This document shows, piece after piece, positions 31,044 to 36,324 of a stretch of 37,857 bases of DNA; position 1 is the stretch's first letter; each line of letters opens with the position of its first letter. Source of the stretch: Fibrobacter sp. UWP2. GTDB lineage: Bacteria; Fibrobacterota; Fibrobacteria; Fibrobacterales; Fibrobacteraceae. Location of the stretch: positions 1 through 37,857 of the forward strand of contig NZ_FQYM01000027.1 of NCBI RefSeq assembly GCF_900141705.1. Direction: 5' to 3'. Below the pieces are notes generated by a model. That model was not told where the DNA came from. It saw only the letters and a program-made list of their open reading frames with translations, and searched no databases. The translations under genes and the position numbers were made by a program.

Positions 31044-32461
31044 CCTTCCATTGCCTTCACCGCCTCTTCGCGGTCGTCAAAATGGTGTTTCGTCTTGCCG
31101 ACGATCTGGTAGTCTTCGTGGCCCTTGCCCGCAATCACAAGCCAGTCCCCTTCTTGCAGGGCAGCACAGGCGCGCCTGATGGCCTCGGCGCGGTCCTCGA
31201 CCACCTCGAACTTCTTGGTCGTCATGCCGGCGCGCACGTCGGCGATTATGGCGCCGGGGTTCTCGGTACGCGGGTTATCGCTCGTAAGCCAAGCCCTGTC
31301 GGCAAGGGTCTCGGCGATATGCCCCATAATAGGGCGCTTGGTGCGGTCGCGATCCCCGCCGCATCCAAACACGGTGCTCAGGCAACCGCGGCAAAGGCTA
31401 CGTGCCGTCGTGAGCACACGTTCCAAGGCGTCGGGCGTATGCGCGTAATCCACAATCACGTGCTTCCCGTTCTTGTTCCACACCTTTTCAAAGCGGCCCG
31501 GCACACGGACGCTCGCCAAGGCGGCACGCATGGCCAGTTCCGGGACGCCTACTGCGTTCGCCCATGCCAAAACCAGCAAAACGTTGTCGACGTTAAAGTC
31601 GCCGCACAAGGGAGTCTCGAATTTTTCCTTCGCAATCATCGGAAGCAAAAATTCCAGACCGTCCTCGGTATTCTTCACCTCGCCCTCGGGCTTCACAAAG
31701 GCCTTTGCCTTACCCAAGCGCGACACAGCAACGGTACGCAGGGCACTTCCGTTCAGGCTGTCAAACAGTTTTTCGCCATGAGCGTCATCAATATTGATGA
31801 CGGCCACGCCACCTTCGGCCAAATACTTAGTGAACAAGAGCTTTTTAGCCTCAAAGTAGGCATCCATAGTCTTGTGGTAATCCAAGTGGTCCTGAGTCAA
31901 GTTGCTGAACAGGCCGCTCTTAAAGCGGATTCCCGCCACACGGCCCTGGTGCAGCGAGTGGCTGGAAGTTTCCATCACCAGATCGGTGCAGCCCGCCGCC
32001 ACGGCCTTCGCCGCAAAGGCGAACAAGTCCAAAAGTCCTGGAGTCGTGAGCGTCGCCGGCACGGCATTGGCGCCAATCTTGTTCATGATGGTGCCGAGCA
32101 GCGCCACCTTGTGACCCGCCGATTCCAGCATCGCGTTCATCAAAAATGCGCTGGTTGTCTTGCCGTTCGTACCCGTAACCGCATGGCAACTAAGCTTGGC
32201 GAACGGATCCTTGTAGAATATCTTTGCCGCTTCCAAACGGGCAGCCTTCACGTCTGCCACCTGGATCCACTTCGAAGTCAGGCCTTCGGGGGCAGGCACC
32301 TCGCCCACCACGGCGACCGCACCGGCAGCGACCGCATTGCGTGCAAATTCCTCGAACCCTTCGGCAGGGATGGAGAAGAACAGATTCCCCGGTTTTACAC
32401 GGCGGGAATCATCGCAAAGCCCCGTCACGGACAACTTTTGCATCAGTCCTTCCGAAATCAT
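31037..32461 (-). CDS. murE: UDP-MurNAc-L-Ala-D-Glu:meso-diaminopimelate ligase MurE
   Basis: Adds the third residue of the peptide stem. The 474-residue ligase has DDSRRVKPGNLFFSIPAEG, the ATP loop GTNGKTT (97-103), SSHSLHQGRV, and DNPR (about 395-398), the motif that marks meso-DAP rather than lysine specificity. The wall is therefore DAP-type, as expected in a Gram-negative. The ATG at 32461 overlaps the ftsI stop as TGATG with AGGAG eight bases upstream; an in-frame GTG ten codons earlier inside ftsI is less likely. Confidence 0.97.
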   Translation of the reverse strand: MISEGLMQKLSVTGLCDDSRRVKPGNLFFSIPAEGFEEFARNAVAAGAVAVVGEVPAPEGLTSKWIQVADVKAARLEAAKIFYKDPFAKLSCHAVTGTNGKTTSAFLMNAMLESAGHKVALLGTIMNKIGANAVPATLTTPGLLDLFAFAAKAVAAGCTDLVMETSSHSLHQGRVAGIRFKSGLFSNLTQDHLDYHKTMDAYFEAKKLLFTKYLAEGGVAVINIDDAHGEKLFDSLNGSALRTVAVSRLGKAKAFVKPEGEVKNTEDGLEFLLPMIAKEKFETPLCGDFNVDNVLLVLAWANAVGVPELAMRAALASVRVPGRFEKVWNKNGKHVIVDYAHTPDALERVLTTARSLCRGCLSTVFGCGGDRDRTKRPIMGHIAETLADRAWLTSDNPRTENPGAIIADVRAGMTTKKFEVVEDRAEAIRRACAALQEGDWLVIAGKGHEDYQIVGKTKHHFDDREEAVKAMEGC

Positions 32462-34353
32462 CAGCCTCTCTCCTTTAAAGTCAACTTGCACACAGTCCCC
32501 TTGCGGAGCGTCTCGTCTGCTTTGGGGGTCTGAGCGACCACACGGCCCTTGCCCTCGTATTCCACGTTCATGCGAATGTTCCCCATCACCTCGAGGGCAT
32601 CCTTCAGCGAAAGACCCTTGAGGTCGGGCATCTTGGTCGCCACAGTCTCACCAAGCATCAGCACCACGCCCATCGAGTCGAGCATGTCGTTACGCTGCGA
32701 AATCACTCGGTCTCCCTCGCCTTGCAAAGTCACCGGGCATCCCCTGTCGCCAGCCAAACGCTTCGCCGCATTCACGGTCATGCCCATAAAGTCCACGTCG
32801 CAGGGATTGTCCACCTTGACTTGCACCAGGTTGTGCGAAAGCGGCGAAAGTTCCGGATGGTAATAGACGCCTTCCATAATGCGACGGAAAATCGGCCCCG
32901 CCGTCACACCGCCGGCATGAACCCCTTGCGGGTCATCCACCAGCACCATGCACACATAGCGGGCATTTTCCACAGGCGCAAGCCCAATGAACGAAGCCAC
33001 CTGATGGTTGCGGTCGTACTTGCCCAATTCCTGACTGTACTTTTCGGCCGTACCCGTCTTGCCCCCAAACAGCACGTCGGGAATCTTTTTAGAGGCCACG
33101 CGCTTTGCCGTTCCGCTATTCACCACACGGTTGAGCATGGCGCGGATCTTGGCCGCAGTCTGTTCGCTAATCACGCGGCGCACTTCCACCGGTTCCTTCT
33201 TCTCGACCAAATTCCCATTGGCGTCCCGCCATTCCTTCACAATCATAGGTTCCATCAGCTTGCCGCCATTCGCCACAGCAGAGTACGCCATCACCATCTG
33301 GATGGGCGTCACCATCACAGCATGCCCAAAGCCCATTTGCTTAAGGTCACTGCCGCTGTTGCTCGCAAGCGTGTACGGATCCTTCAACATTCCCGATTCC
33401 TCGCCGTAAAAGGCGTCGGAGGTCTTCATTCCCAAACCGTAATGGCTCGCCATCTGGTAAAGTTTTTGCGCGCCCACCGCATCGGCGATCTTTGCAAACA
33501 CAATGTTCGAGGACTGCACCATCGCTTCGCTCATGTTCATGTCACCATACTCATGGGTGTCACGTATCGGGTTCGCCCTCGGGTTCCACTTCCACGACTT
33601 ACCCTCATTCGGGAAAATCCGGTTCGTATCGACAATGCCGTTCTCAAGCGCCGCCGAAGCGGTAATGACCTTGAAGGTGGATCCCGGTTCATAGGACATC
33701 GATACAATGTCGTTTTTCGCCATGCGGCCTATGCCCTGCGTTTTGGAGTTCGGGTCAAAGGTCGGGTAGCTCGCCATGGCGAGGATTTCGCCCGTGTACG
33801 GGTCCACCACCACGGCGCTCGCGCTCTTTGCGCTAAATTCCGCGACGCCGTCCTTAAGAGCCTTCTCCACAATCTCCTGCATGTTCTTGTCAATCGTCAA
33901 AACCAGGTTCTTGCCCGGTTCTGCCTGGGCCACGTCTTCGCTGCGGCTGTAAATTTCACGGTGGCGCACGTCCTGCACGCTCACGCGGAAGCCCTCCACA
34001 CCCGTAAGGCGGGAGTCGAACACGCGTTCAATGCCCATGTTGCCGTGTCCGTTAAAGTCCAACTTGCCCACAATCTGGCTTGCAAGCTTGCCCTGCAAAA
34101 AGATTCGGCTGTAATCCAGCACCTTGTTCGCCGTGTCGCGAAGGTTGTCGGCAAGCACCACGCCATTGCGGTCCATAATCTGACCGCGCTCGGCATAGAC
34201 GTTCTTGGAACGCACCACCATGTCCTTGGTCTTGGACTGATAAGCCTTCTGGTTCAAAACCTGGATGTTGAAAGTCTGCAGCATGAGTACGGCCACAAGA
34301 CTCATCACGAGCCACTTGATAAATGCCAAAGGTTCCAATCTGAACTTGTTCAC
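32461..34353 (-). CDS. ftsI: septal transpeptidase FtsI (class B penicillin-binding protein) with two PASTA domains
   Basis: Crosslinks septal peptidoglycan with FtsW. The 630-residue protein has one N-terminal membrane helix (about 13-27), a dimerisation domain, and the transpeptidase with S225-T-F-K228, S281-S-N283 and K432-T-G434. Two PASTA-like repeats follow (about 514-569 and 572-629), which the short E. coli FtsI lacks. It starts with GTG (GTGA overlap with the ftsL stop) and has GGAGG six bases upstream. Confidence 0.96.
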   Translation of the reverse strand: MNKFRLEPLAFIKWLVMSLVAVLMLQTFNIQVLNQKAYQSKTKDMVVRSKNVYAERGQIMDRNGVVLADNLRDTANKVLDYSRIFLQGKLASQIVGKLDFNGHGNMGIERVFDSRLTGVEGFRVSVQDVRHREIYSRSEDVAQAEPGKNLVLTIDKNMQEIVEKALKDGVAEFSAKSASAVVVDPYTGEILAMASYPTFDPNSKTQGIGRMAKNDIVSMSYEPGSTFKVITASAALENGIVDTNRIFPNEGKSWKWNPRANPIRDTHEYGDMNMSEAMVQSSNIVFAKIADAVGAQKLYQMASHYGLGMKTSDAFYGEESGMLKDPYTLASNSGSDLKQMGFGHAVMVTPIQMVMAYSAVANGGKLMEPMIVKEWRDANGNLVEKKEPVEVRRVISEQTAAKIRAMLNRVVNSGTAKRVASKKIPDVLFGGKTGTAEKYSQELGKYDRNHQVASFIGLAPVENARYVCMVLVDDPQGVHAGGVTAGPIFRRIMEGVYYHPELSPLSHNLVQVKVDNPCDVDFMGMTVNAAKRLAGDRGCPVTLQGEGDRVISQRNDMLDSMGVVLMLGETVATKMPDLKGLSLKDALEVMGNIRMNVEYEGKGRVVAQTPKADETLRKGTVCKLTLKERG

Positions 34354-34661
34354 TTGGAGCCTCCTTGCGGCATCACCTTCACCGGCAGCACATTCAAGCC
34401 AAGTTCAGCCTGTTCCGCGAACTCAGCCATATTTTCTAAAGACGAAAGCTGATTGATCTTGAGCTCCAGCAAAAGCGCGTCCCGCTGCAAAAACGTCAGT
34501 TCCTCAGAGAGCTTGTGCTTGGTCTCGTACAAGCTGTTTAAGCGGTTTTGCAGGTAGAGGGGCGTCATGCAGAACAGCACCAAAAAGAGCAGCACCAAAG
34601 ACACGATCCAAAAGATGGAGCGGTTGGTCGTAGGAACGAGTATTTTCTTGGTATCACTCAT
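34350..34661 (-). CDS. ftsL: FtsL-like divisome protein
   Basis: A 103-residue bitopic protein: a short cytoplasmic N-terminus, one membrane helix (about 16-37, IFWIVSLVLLFLVLF) and a periplasmic heptad-like stretch (about 38-75) that would form the FtsB/FtsL coiled coil. Sequence conservation in this family is low, so the assignment rests on size, topology and position between rsmH and ftsI. It overlaps both by four bases. Confidence 0.82.
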   Translation of the reverse strand: MSDTKKILVPTTNRSIFWIVSLVLLFLVLFCMTPLYLQNRLNSLYETKHKLSEELTFLQRDALLLELKINQLSSLENMAEFAEQAELGLNVLPVKVMPQGGSK

Positions 34662-35653
34662 ACGCGTTCGTACACCCTCAGTTTCGCAGAGCGAGCCCTG
34701 CTATTCCTTGCAATTTCTTCATCACTGGGCAGAATCGGCTTGCGATTCACCTTCTTTAGGCGCTGGTGGTTGCCGCCGCACATGCACACCGGCAAGTTCT
34801 CGGGGCAAATGCAGGCCTTCTCGAACTTGGCGCAAGTGTCCTTCACACAGCGGTCTTCCACGCTGTGGTAGCTCATCACCACCAAGCGGCCGCCCACCTT
34901 GAGGCAATCCACCGCCGCAGTCAGGCTCTGTTCAATTTGGGCGAGTTCGCCGTTCACTTCCATGCGAACCGCCTGGAACACGCGTGCCAGCAGGCTGTTC
35001 ACATCGCGGCGCTTGTCGGGGAACACCGCTTCCACAATCGCCTTCACGTCGCTCGGCAAAATGTCACGGTTCTCCGCAGCCGTCTTTACCGCGACTTCCA
35101 CAAGGCGGGTCGCCAGTTTATAGGCGCGGTCCATGTCCGCATTCTTGCGGAGGGCATCGGCCAAGTCGTCGGCGCTCACCGAACGTAGCCATTCCTGGGC
35201 GCTCACGCCCTCGCGGCGGTCCATGCGCAAATCCAGCGGGTTGTTTCCCACAAAGGTGAACCCGCGGCTTGAATCATCGACCTGGTGGCTGCTGATTCCC
35301 AGATCATACAATATTCCGTCGACCGAATTTGCCGCAATCTCTTCACCCAGCTTGGCAAAAGCCACCGGGTGTACAACGAACTTCGGCGATTTCTCGACAG
35401 GGATAGTCGCCATGCGCTTTGTGGCAAAAGCCACCGCCTCTTCGTCGCGGTCAAAGGAGTGCAGCGTCCCCGCAGGGCTCAACTTATTCGCTATGGCATA
35501 CGAATGACCGCCGCCGCCAAGAGTACAATCCACAAACGTCCCTCCCACAAGGGAGGCGTCACTTAGCCGCAGGCCCTCGAGGCATTCTGCGAGCATCACC
35601 GGTTCGTGATAGTTTATTTGTAATTTAGCTTGACGAAGGTCAGCGTTTTCCAT
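34658..35653 (-). CDS. rsmH: 16S rRNA N4-methylcytidine-1402 methyltransferase RsmH
   Basis: Methylates C1402 of 16S rRNA using S-adenosylmethionine; formerly MraW. The 331-residue protein shows the family order: INYHEPVMLAECLEGL, the SAM-binding loop FVDCTLGGGGHS, ILYDLGISSHQVDD, and toward the end LVVMSYHSVEDRCVK and the Cys-rich CICPENLPVCMCGG segment. It overlaps mraZ by 14 bases and ftsL by four. Confidence 0.97.
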   Translation of the reverse strand: MENADLRQAKLQINYHEPVMLAECLEGLRLSDASLVGGTFVDCTLGGGGHSYAIANKLSPAGTLHSFDRDEEAVAFATKRMATIPVEKSPKFVVHPVAFAKLGEEIAANSVDGILYDLGISSHQVDDSSRGFTFVGNNPLDLRMDRREGVSAQEWLRSVSADDLADALRKNADMDRAYKLATRLVEVAVKTAAENRDILPSDVKAIVEAVFPDKRRDVNSLLARVFQAVRMEVNGELAQIEQSLTAAVDCLKVGGRLVVMSYHSVEDRCVKDTCAKFEKACICPENLPVCMCGGNHQRLKKVNRKPILPSDEEIARNSRARSAKLRVYERV

Positions 35654-36116: not shown

Positions 36117-36124
36117 TTTGTTTT

Positions 36125-36171
36125 TACCACATTTTACCACAACACGCAATAAATCTACCACTTTCTACCAC
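36125..36171 (-). promoter_or_regulatory. four phased direct repeats, candidate MraZ operator
   Basis: On the minus strand GTGGTA occurs four times, occupying 36125-36130, 36135-36140, 36156-36161 and 36166-36171. Spacings are 10, 21 and 10 bases, one or two DNA turns. MraZ in E. coli and mycoplasmas binds tandem TGGG- or GTGG-type boxes spaced about 10 bases apart. The boxes end nine bases before the mraZ start. An inverted repeat CCACTT-n5-AAGTGG at 36168-36184 adds a fifth half-site in the opposite direction. Confidence 0.75.
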
Positions 36172-36195
36172 TTCTTGCAAGTGGTTCTTACGAAA

Positions 36196-36201
36196 ATCAT
36201 A
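36196..36201 (-). promoter_or_regulatory. extended -10 promoter of the dcw operon
   Basis: TATGAT on the minus strand, preceded by TGG to give the extended -10 form TGnTATGAT. No clear -35 hexamer is seen, which an extended -10 can tolerate. Transcription would start around 36188, so the GTGGTA boxes lie in the early transcribed region, a position where bound MraZ would block RNA polymerase. Confidence 0.45.
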
Positions 36202-36249
36202 CCAGATATTGTGGTCCGGCGTCGTTGTACTACACAAGAGAGCACTAAA

Positions 36250-36282
36250 CAAAGAAAACACCAATGCATTTTAACATTGGTG
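36250..36282 (-). terminator. rho-independent terminator of the FISUMP gene
   Basis: A perfect eight-base-pair stem, CACCAATG/CATTGGTG (36259-36266 with 36275-36282), and an eight-base loop. On the minus strand TTTTCTTTG follows immediately, which fits termination of the gene ending at 36325. On the plus strand a T-run also follows about eight bases later. It isolates the dcw operon from the upstream gene. Confidence 0.85.
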
Positions 36283-36324
36283 CTCATTCTTTTTTTATGA
36301 TGTTTATTTAGTCAAGCGACGGAT

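Follow-up and report, generated by a model that had tools for sequence, protein, structure and literature searches.

What do the four GTGGTA repeats directly upstream of mraZ do in Fibrobacter, and how are they placed with respect to the promoter that they might control? MraZ is a widespread bacterial regulator. The window analysed here is a stretch of 37,857 nucleotides from Fibrobacter sp. UWP2 (assembly GCF_900141705.1, contig NZ_FQYM01000027.1), and its features are collected in Table 1. Sequence comparison suggests that the four boxes are probably the operator by which MraZ would repress its own dcw operon, through occlusion of RNA polymerase.

Table 1. Features of the mraZ region (positions of the window; fractions refer to the 76 upstream sequences of the genus Fibrobacter)
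Feature	Position	Strand	Remarks
ftsI-type transpeptidase with PASTA domain	32461..34353	-	PF00905, 266.5 bits
Small ORF at the ftsL position	34350..34661	-	Without Pfam match; assigned from position only
rsmH (mraW)	34658..35653	-	PF01795, 278.6 bits; overlaps the end of mraZ
mraZ, 158 aa	35640..36116	-	Start codon ATG 36116-36114; Pfam PF02381, 67.2 bits against a cut-off of 23; model matches solved MraZ
MraZ box 4 (predicted), GTGGTA	36125..36130	-	Least conserved; GTGG 7/76, GTGT 51/76
MraZ box 3 (predicted), GTGGTA	36135..36140	-	About +6 to +11 of the predicted transcript; GTGG 63/76, GTGT 13/76
Putative -10, TAGATT	36152..36157	-	Extended (TGG in front); most relatives have TATATT
MraZ box 2 (predicted), GTGGTA	36156..36161	-	Shares its final two bases with the start of the -10; GTGG 53/76, ATGG 16/76
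MraZ box 1 (predicted), GTGGTA	36166..36171	-	In the -35/-10 spacer; GTGG 74/76
Putative -35, TTGCAA	36175..36180	-	TTGNNN 16-18 bp from the -10 in 74/76; relatives usually TTGCCA or TTGCCG
Inverted half-site	36181..36185	+	Minus strand reads ACCAC; CCAC at most 25 nt upstream of box 1 in 8/76
TGGTATGAT, extended -10 of the preliminary description	36196..36204	-	Possible second promoter; exact in 2/76, looser TATGNT in 48/76
Terminator-like hairpin	36256..36285	both	Between the Fib_succ_major gene and mraZ

The mraZ gene is the first gene of a dcw cluster and is followed by rsmH. The AlphaFold model of its product has a pLDDT of 82.1. All 16 PDB matches of this model in a Foldseek search (E <= 0.001) are solved MraZ structures, including 9r4j ("in complex with its promoter") and 9sz7 ("MraZ in complex with 4 box promoter", M. 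genitalium, cryo-EM). The protein scores below the NCBIfam equivalog cut-offs (TIGR00242 and PRK00326 models), with 66.1 against 98.35 bits for TIGR00242. The TIGR00242 cut-off is exceeded in just 17 of the 167 genomes of the phylum; it is a threshold for transferring names automatically and does not define the family, and the Pfam match, the fold and the gene order are all those of MraZ. As the MraZ proteins of the phylum lie mostly under the NCBI naming cut-off, automatic annotation may miss them.

Upstream of mraZ, and in the same direction, lies the end of a gene for a protein with a Fib_succ_major domain. The terminator-like hairpin lies between the two genes; therefore, the mraZ promoter is probably located within about 36117-36255. 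The hairpin is also covered by a sub-threshold Rfam match (STnc240, E 0.075), which is probably due to chance.

The four GTGGTA boxes on the minus strand have start-to-start steps of 10, 21 and 10 bp, and the positions and steps given in the preliminary description were confirmed. The paired motif GTGGTANNNNGTGGTA occurs twice in the window, with 0 occurrences expected from 100 dinucleotide shuffles. The genome of 3,234,975 bases contains no copy beyond these two upstream of mraZ, and the reversed control gave 0. The four-box GTGG frame has one genomic site with 0 mismatches, and the next best site has 2 mismatches; at up to 3 mismatches, 27 sites compare with 27 for the reversed control. By both scans, the predicted MraZ site is confined to the dcw promoter in this genome. 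A search for further MraZ targets in the genome gave 124 sites of the paired motif at up to 2 mismatches, compared with 231 for the reversed control, and only the two exact sites stand out.

The conservation of the boxes was analysed within the genus. Among 80 genomes searched, 79 had a match, and G023 and G051 had no usable mraZ. Of the 80 upstream sequences, four were too short (L014, L030, L031, and L036), and the remaining 76 came from 75 genomes, with two mraZ genes in G007. On visual inspection, two of the short sequences, L014 and L036, carry these boxes as well. In all 76 upstream sequences, a TG core is kept in three or more of the boxes; the sequences are related by descent, so that the genome counts are not independent. 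GTGG at all four boxes was found only in the window, L056, and L057. The window is an unusually perfect example, and the genus pattern is conserved but looser. The preliminary description had staked its reading on the boxes being kept upstream of mraZ in related genomes, and they are kept there, box 4 least (Table 1).

The promoter was placed from two hexamers. A -10-like hexamer touching box 2 served as the anchoring rule for the genus upstream sequences and is present in all 76 (TATATT 47, TAGATT 18, TAATTT 5, TAAATT 4, and TACATT 2). Because the -10 was used for anchoring, the -35 is the more independent part of the promoter call; the rules for box, gap, promoter and layout calling were all written after the sequences had been viewed. 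In the window, the TTGCAA/TAGATT pair has a 17-bp spacer. Genome-wide, CTTG-N18-20-TATATTTG gave 15 matches, compared with 3 when the motif was reversed; CTTGA begins 11 of these matches, and CTTGACA begins 7. As a bare consensus with up to 3 mismatches allowed, TTGCAA-N17-TAGATT has 30 window sites where 26.4 are expected, and a generic scan of the window did not have this pair among its calls. The consensus is unremarkable, and therefore the case for the promoter rests on conservation. The hexamer pair would place the transcription start near 36145. Boxes 1 and 2 would thus lie within the -35/-10 spacer, with box 2 overlapping the -10, and boxes 3 and 4 would lie at about +6 to +21. This layout points to the likely promoter of the dcw operon in Fibrobacter.

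Such a layout suggests how repression might work. One MraZ subunit would read each GTGG box, and the 10-bp step would set the boxes on one helix face. Bound MraZ would then cover the -10 and the start site from both sides. We take this two-sided coverage to mean that RNA polymerase is probably occluded: MraZ would keep the polymerase off the promoter, rather than stop it after starting. The outcome would be an autorepression loop on the dcw operon.

The preliminary description placed the boxes downstream of the extended -10 TGGTATGAT and proposed a roadblock-type repression. Transcription would then start near 36190, and MraZ on all four downstream boxes would stop or slow the elongating polymerase. 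TGGTATGAT is present in the window and is a good extended -10; as the main promoter, it appears to be wrong or incomplete, being intact in 2 of the 76 genus upstream sequences, compared with 74 for the hexamer pair around boxes 1 and 2. The looser TATGNT is found upstream of box 1 in 48 of the 76, at a varying distance and often before a T run, and leaves room for a possible second promoter upstream of the boxes. The boxes also lie downstream of the -10 in E. coli and, according to the accessible part of PMC7761207, in B. cenocepacia. However, a roadblock is not the natural reading, because boxes 1 and 2 sit inside the putative -35/-10 promoter. The genomic enrichment of CTTG-N18-20-TATATTTG also argues against it, as does the TATATT after box 2, which is kept in most members of the family outside the genus. 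A roadblock from TGGTATGAT was thus rejected as the main reading and, in view of the TATGNT elements, kept as a rival that we consider unlikely. Occlusion of RNA polymerase would be the likelier of the two.

The boxes fit an MraZ operator, as had been proposed from their layout: they have 10-bp steps and are kept with mraZ in relatives. Less can be said for the claim that the GTGGTA core is unusual compared with the TGGG of E. coli. E. coli K-12 MG1655 (NC_000913.3) itself has GTGGG boxes every 10 bp directly upstream of mraZ-rsmH-ftsL. Within the phylum of Fibrobacter, GTGG/TGGG boxes with this 10-bp spacing likewise lie ahead of mraZ in further families and in other classes, so that there is nothing unusual about the core. 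The accessible parts of the literature describe similar sites. B. subtilis, E. coli, and mycoplasmas all have GTG repeats in their MraZ sites (PMC7761207); for Mollicutes, the site is written (AAAGTGKN3)3 (PMC5282649); and the sole AAAGTG[T/G] site of M. genitalium lies at the mraZ promoter (PMC8475190). The Mollicute operator, including that of M. genitalium in 9sz7, shares with the window the GTG core, the 10-bp period (in the window within each box pair), the four boxes and the single genomic site. P-mra of B. cenocepacia J2315 likewise has four repeats with a 10-bp period (7 nt with 3-nt spacers), and this fragment was bound by MraZ in a gel shift (PMC7761207).

The differences lie in the arrangement of the boxes. 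In E. coli, an uninterrupted run of boxes comes after a TTGACA/TAAACT pair, whereas the window boxes are split two and two around the putative -10. The Mollicute repeats, as given in the accessible sources, are contiguous at 10 bp; the window has a 21-bp middle step. In B. cenocepacia, the repeats are described as lying past the -10 and covering the start site (accessible part of PMC7761207), whereas boxes 1 and 2 of the window would lie inside the -35/-10 spacer. A literature search, with most subscription journals beyond its reach, found no description of a split layout around the -10 with gap classes for MraZ, and no paper on MraZ sites in Fibrobacter was recognised in it. The core and the step are already known; the split layout and its gap classes appear to be new.

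The boxes might instead bind a regulator other than MraZ, or serve both. Mollicute HsdC has a similar repeat, which is also bound by MraZ in vitro (accessible part of PMC5282649). Against this, most of the phylum has the boxes at mraZ, their sequence agrees with MraZ sites in the literature, and the genome contains them only once, which makes another regulator rather improbable.

An inverted half-site had also been described upstream of box 1. It is present in the window but is not a conserved part of the layout, with CCAC in just 8 of the 76 genus upstream sequences, and was rejected as a part of the operator for this reason. The same count bears on control at the RNA level, in which the repeats and the inverted repeat ACCACTT/AAGTGGT would form a leader hairpin. 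A transcript from the upstream site would fold with z = -2.1, chiefly through this hairpin; however, a leader from about the start proposed here folds poorly (z = +1.3), and an Rfam search gave no match at the gathering score. A leader RNA element was rejected accordingly, and we regard control of this kind as highly improbable.

The layout was then compared across the phylum. Matches were found in 77 genomes outside the genus, of which 71 were taken and 69 parsed (L104 and L109 were left out); the remaining six comprise five genomes of genus g4, in which the layout breaks down, and G137, which has a partial match near a contig end. Promoter and box chain were callable in 29 of 33 rows from other classes, and in 24 of 36 rows from Fibrobacter's class outside the genus. 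The other classes typically have TTGACA-N17/18-TATTCT followed by TGGG boxes every 10 bp, and all boxes lie after the -10 in 28 of the 29 callable upstream sequences, L111 being the exception. Within Fibrobacter's class outside the genus, the boxes lie on both sides of the -10 in 21 of the 24 callable; the exceptions are L139 and L150, both of g4, and L145, with a weak box 3. By these calls, the layout straddling the putative -10 is lineage-specific to Fibrobacter's class. In families f3 and f4, the usual arrangement is a row of boxes 10 bp apart, with TAGATT or TAGTTT in the middle. In the window's own family, steps of 10, 20 and 10 bp prevail among the other genera, with the exception of genus g4. 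A chance repeat, or mere descent of unconstrained sequence, has a negligible probability: the sequences are related and the genome counts non-independent, but the shuffles gave an expectation of 0, and the boxes persist across families and classes while their flanks diverge, which contradicts chance.

The predicted operator of the window consists of two box pairs at 10 bp with a middle step of 21 bp. Given the 10, 20 and 10 bp found in most other genera of the family, this would amount to an unbroken 10-bp register in which one position is passed over. In the genus, the gap between boxes 2 and 3 is 21 in 40 of the 76 upstream sequences, 31 in 25, 39-41 in 10, and 48 in one. A few gaps were set by hand: 31 instead of 41 in L061 and L062, where the rule had caught box 4; 21 in L082; and 20 in five outgroup rows. 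On a tree of MraZ and RsmH (90 rows; a quick tree with long outgroup branches), the fewest changes were 9 for the exact gap and 5 for the turn class. Gap 31 occurs in two separate clades, and gap 21 (L063 and L064) is nested in one of them. Five multi-base gap changes were read from the tree by eye (+10, +10, -10, about +19, and +8), of which four are within 1 nt of a multiple of 10. The gap classes fit a constraint on helical phase, which is suggestive only, as the events are few and the rule was set after the data had been seen. Against such a constraint, the gap of 48 in L076 is out of phase, and the 39-41 class falls 1-3 nt short of four 10.5-bp turns. Shifts of the -10 relative to box 2 account for 9 changes, compared with 8 gap changes on the same 75 rows, and a general compensation between the two was not borne out by these counts. 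The clade of L038, L039, L042, and L045 is a clear case, in which a one-base shift of the -10 goes with an unchanged gap of 21.

A further reading is offered tentatively, as a possibility that we would not yet call probable. MraZ might read a 10-bp register with positions that may stay empty, and the box pairs would be free to separate by near-whole turns (20/21, 31, or 39-41). One ring, or two in contact, could then clamp a bent stretch of variable length that holds the -10 and the start site. In this way, a tandem operator located downstream may have become, in the class, a split clamp around the -10. Boxes on differing sides of the -10, pulled apart in near-whole turns, form a natural series within one phylum. 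This series bears on how much of the MraZ ring must touch DNA to repress, and on whether the position relative to the promoter matters; structures of MraZ with a four-box promoter now exist.

Several variations were observed in individual lineages. Box 3 is enclosed by an inverted repeat, ATTCCAT...ATGGAAT, immediately ahead of mraZ in the clade with the 40-bp gap (L070 at about 340-380, and most of L071-L080); the window is without it, and it might be an extra leader element. Genus g4 (L139, L141, and L149-L152) has a TATATTT-like element a few bases before the mraZ ATG, with the boxes upstream of it, which suggests a leaderless message. The MraZ proteins of the same six g4 rows all contain DGNGR, compared with DxKGR in most relatives. 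In family f4 (L128, L131, L133, L135-L137, L143, and L144), MraZ is without the DxKGR lysine (DAT, DAA, DSA, or DTA for DxK), yet TGG boxes are found at 10-bp steps. Family f2 (L153 and L154) has a fifth TGGG-like box midway between the pairs, as if there were five contiguous boxes.
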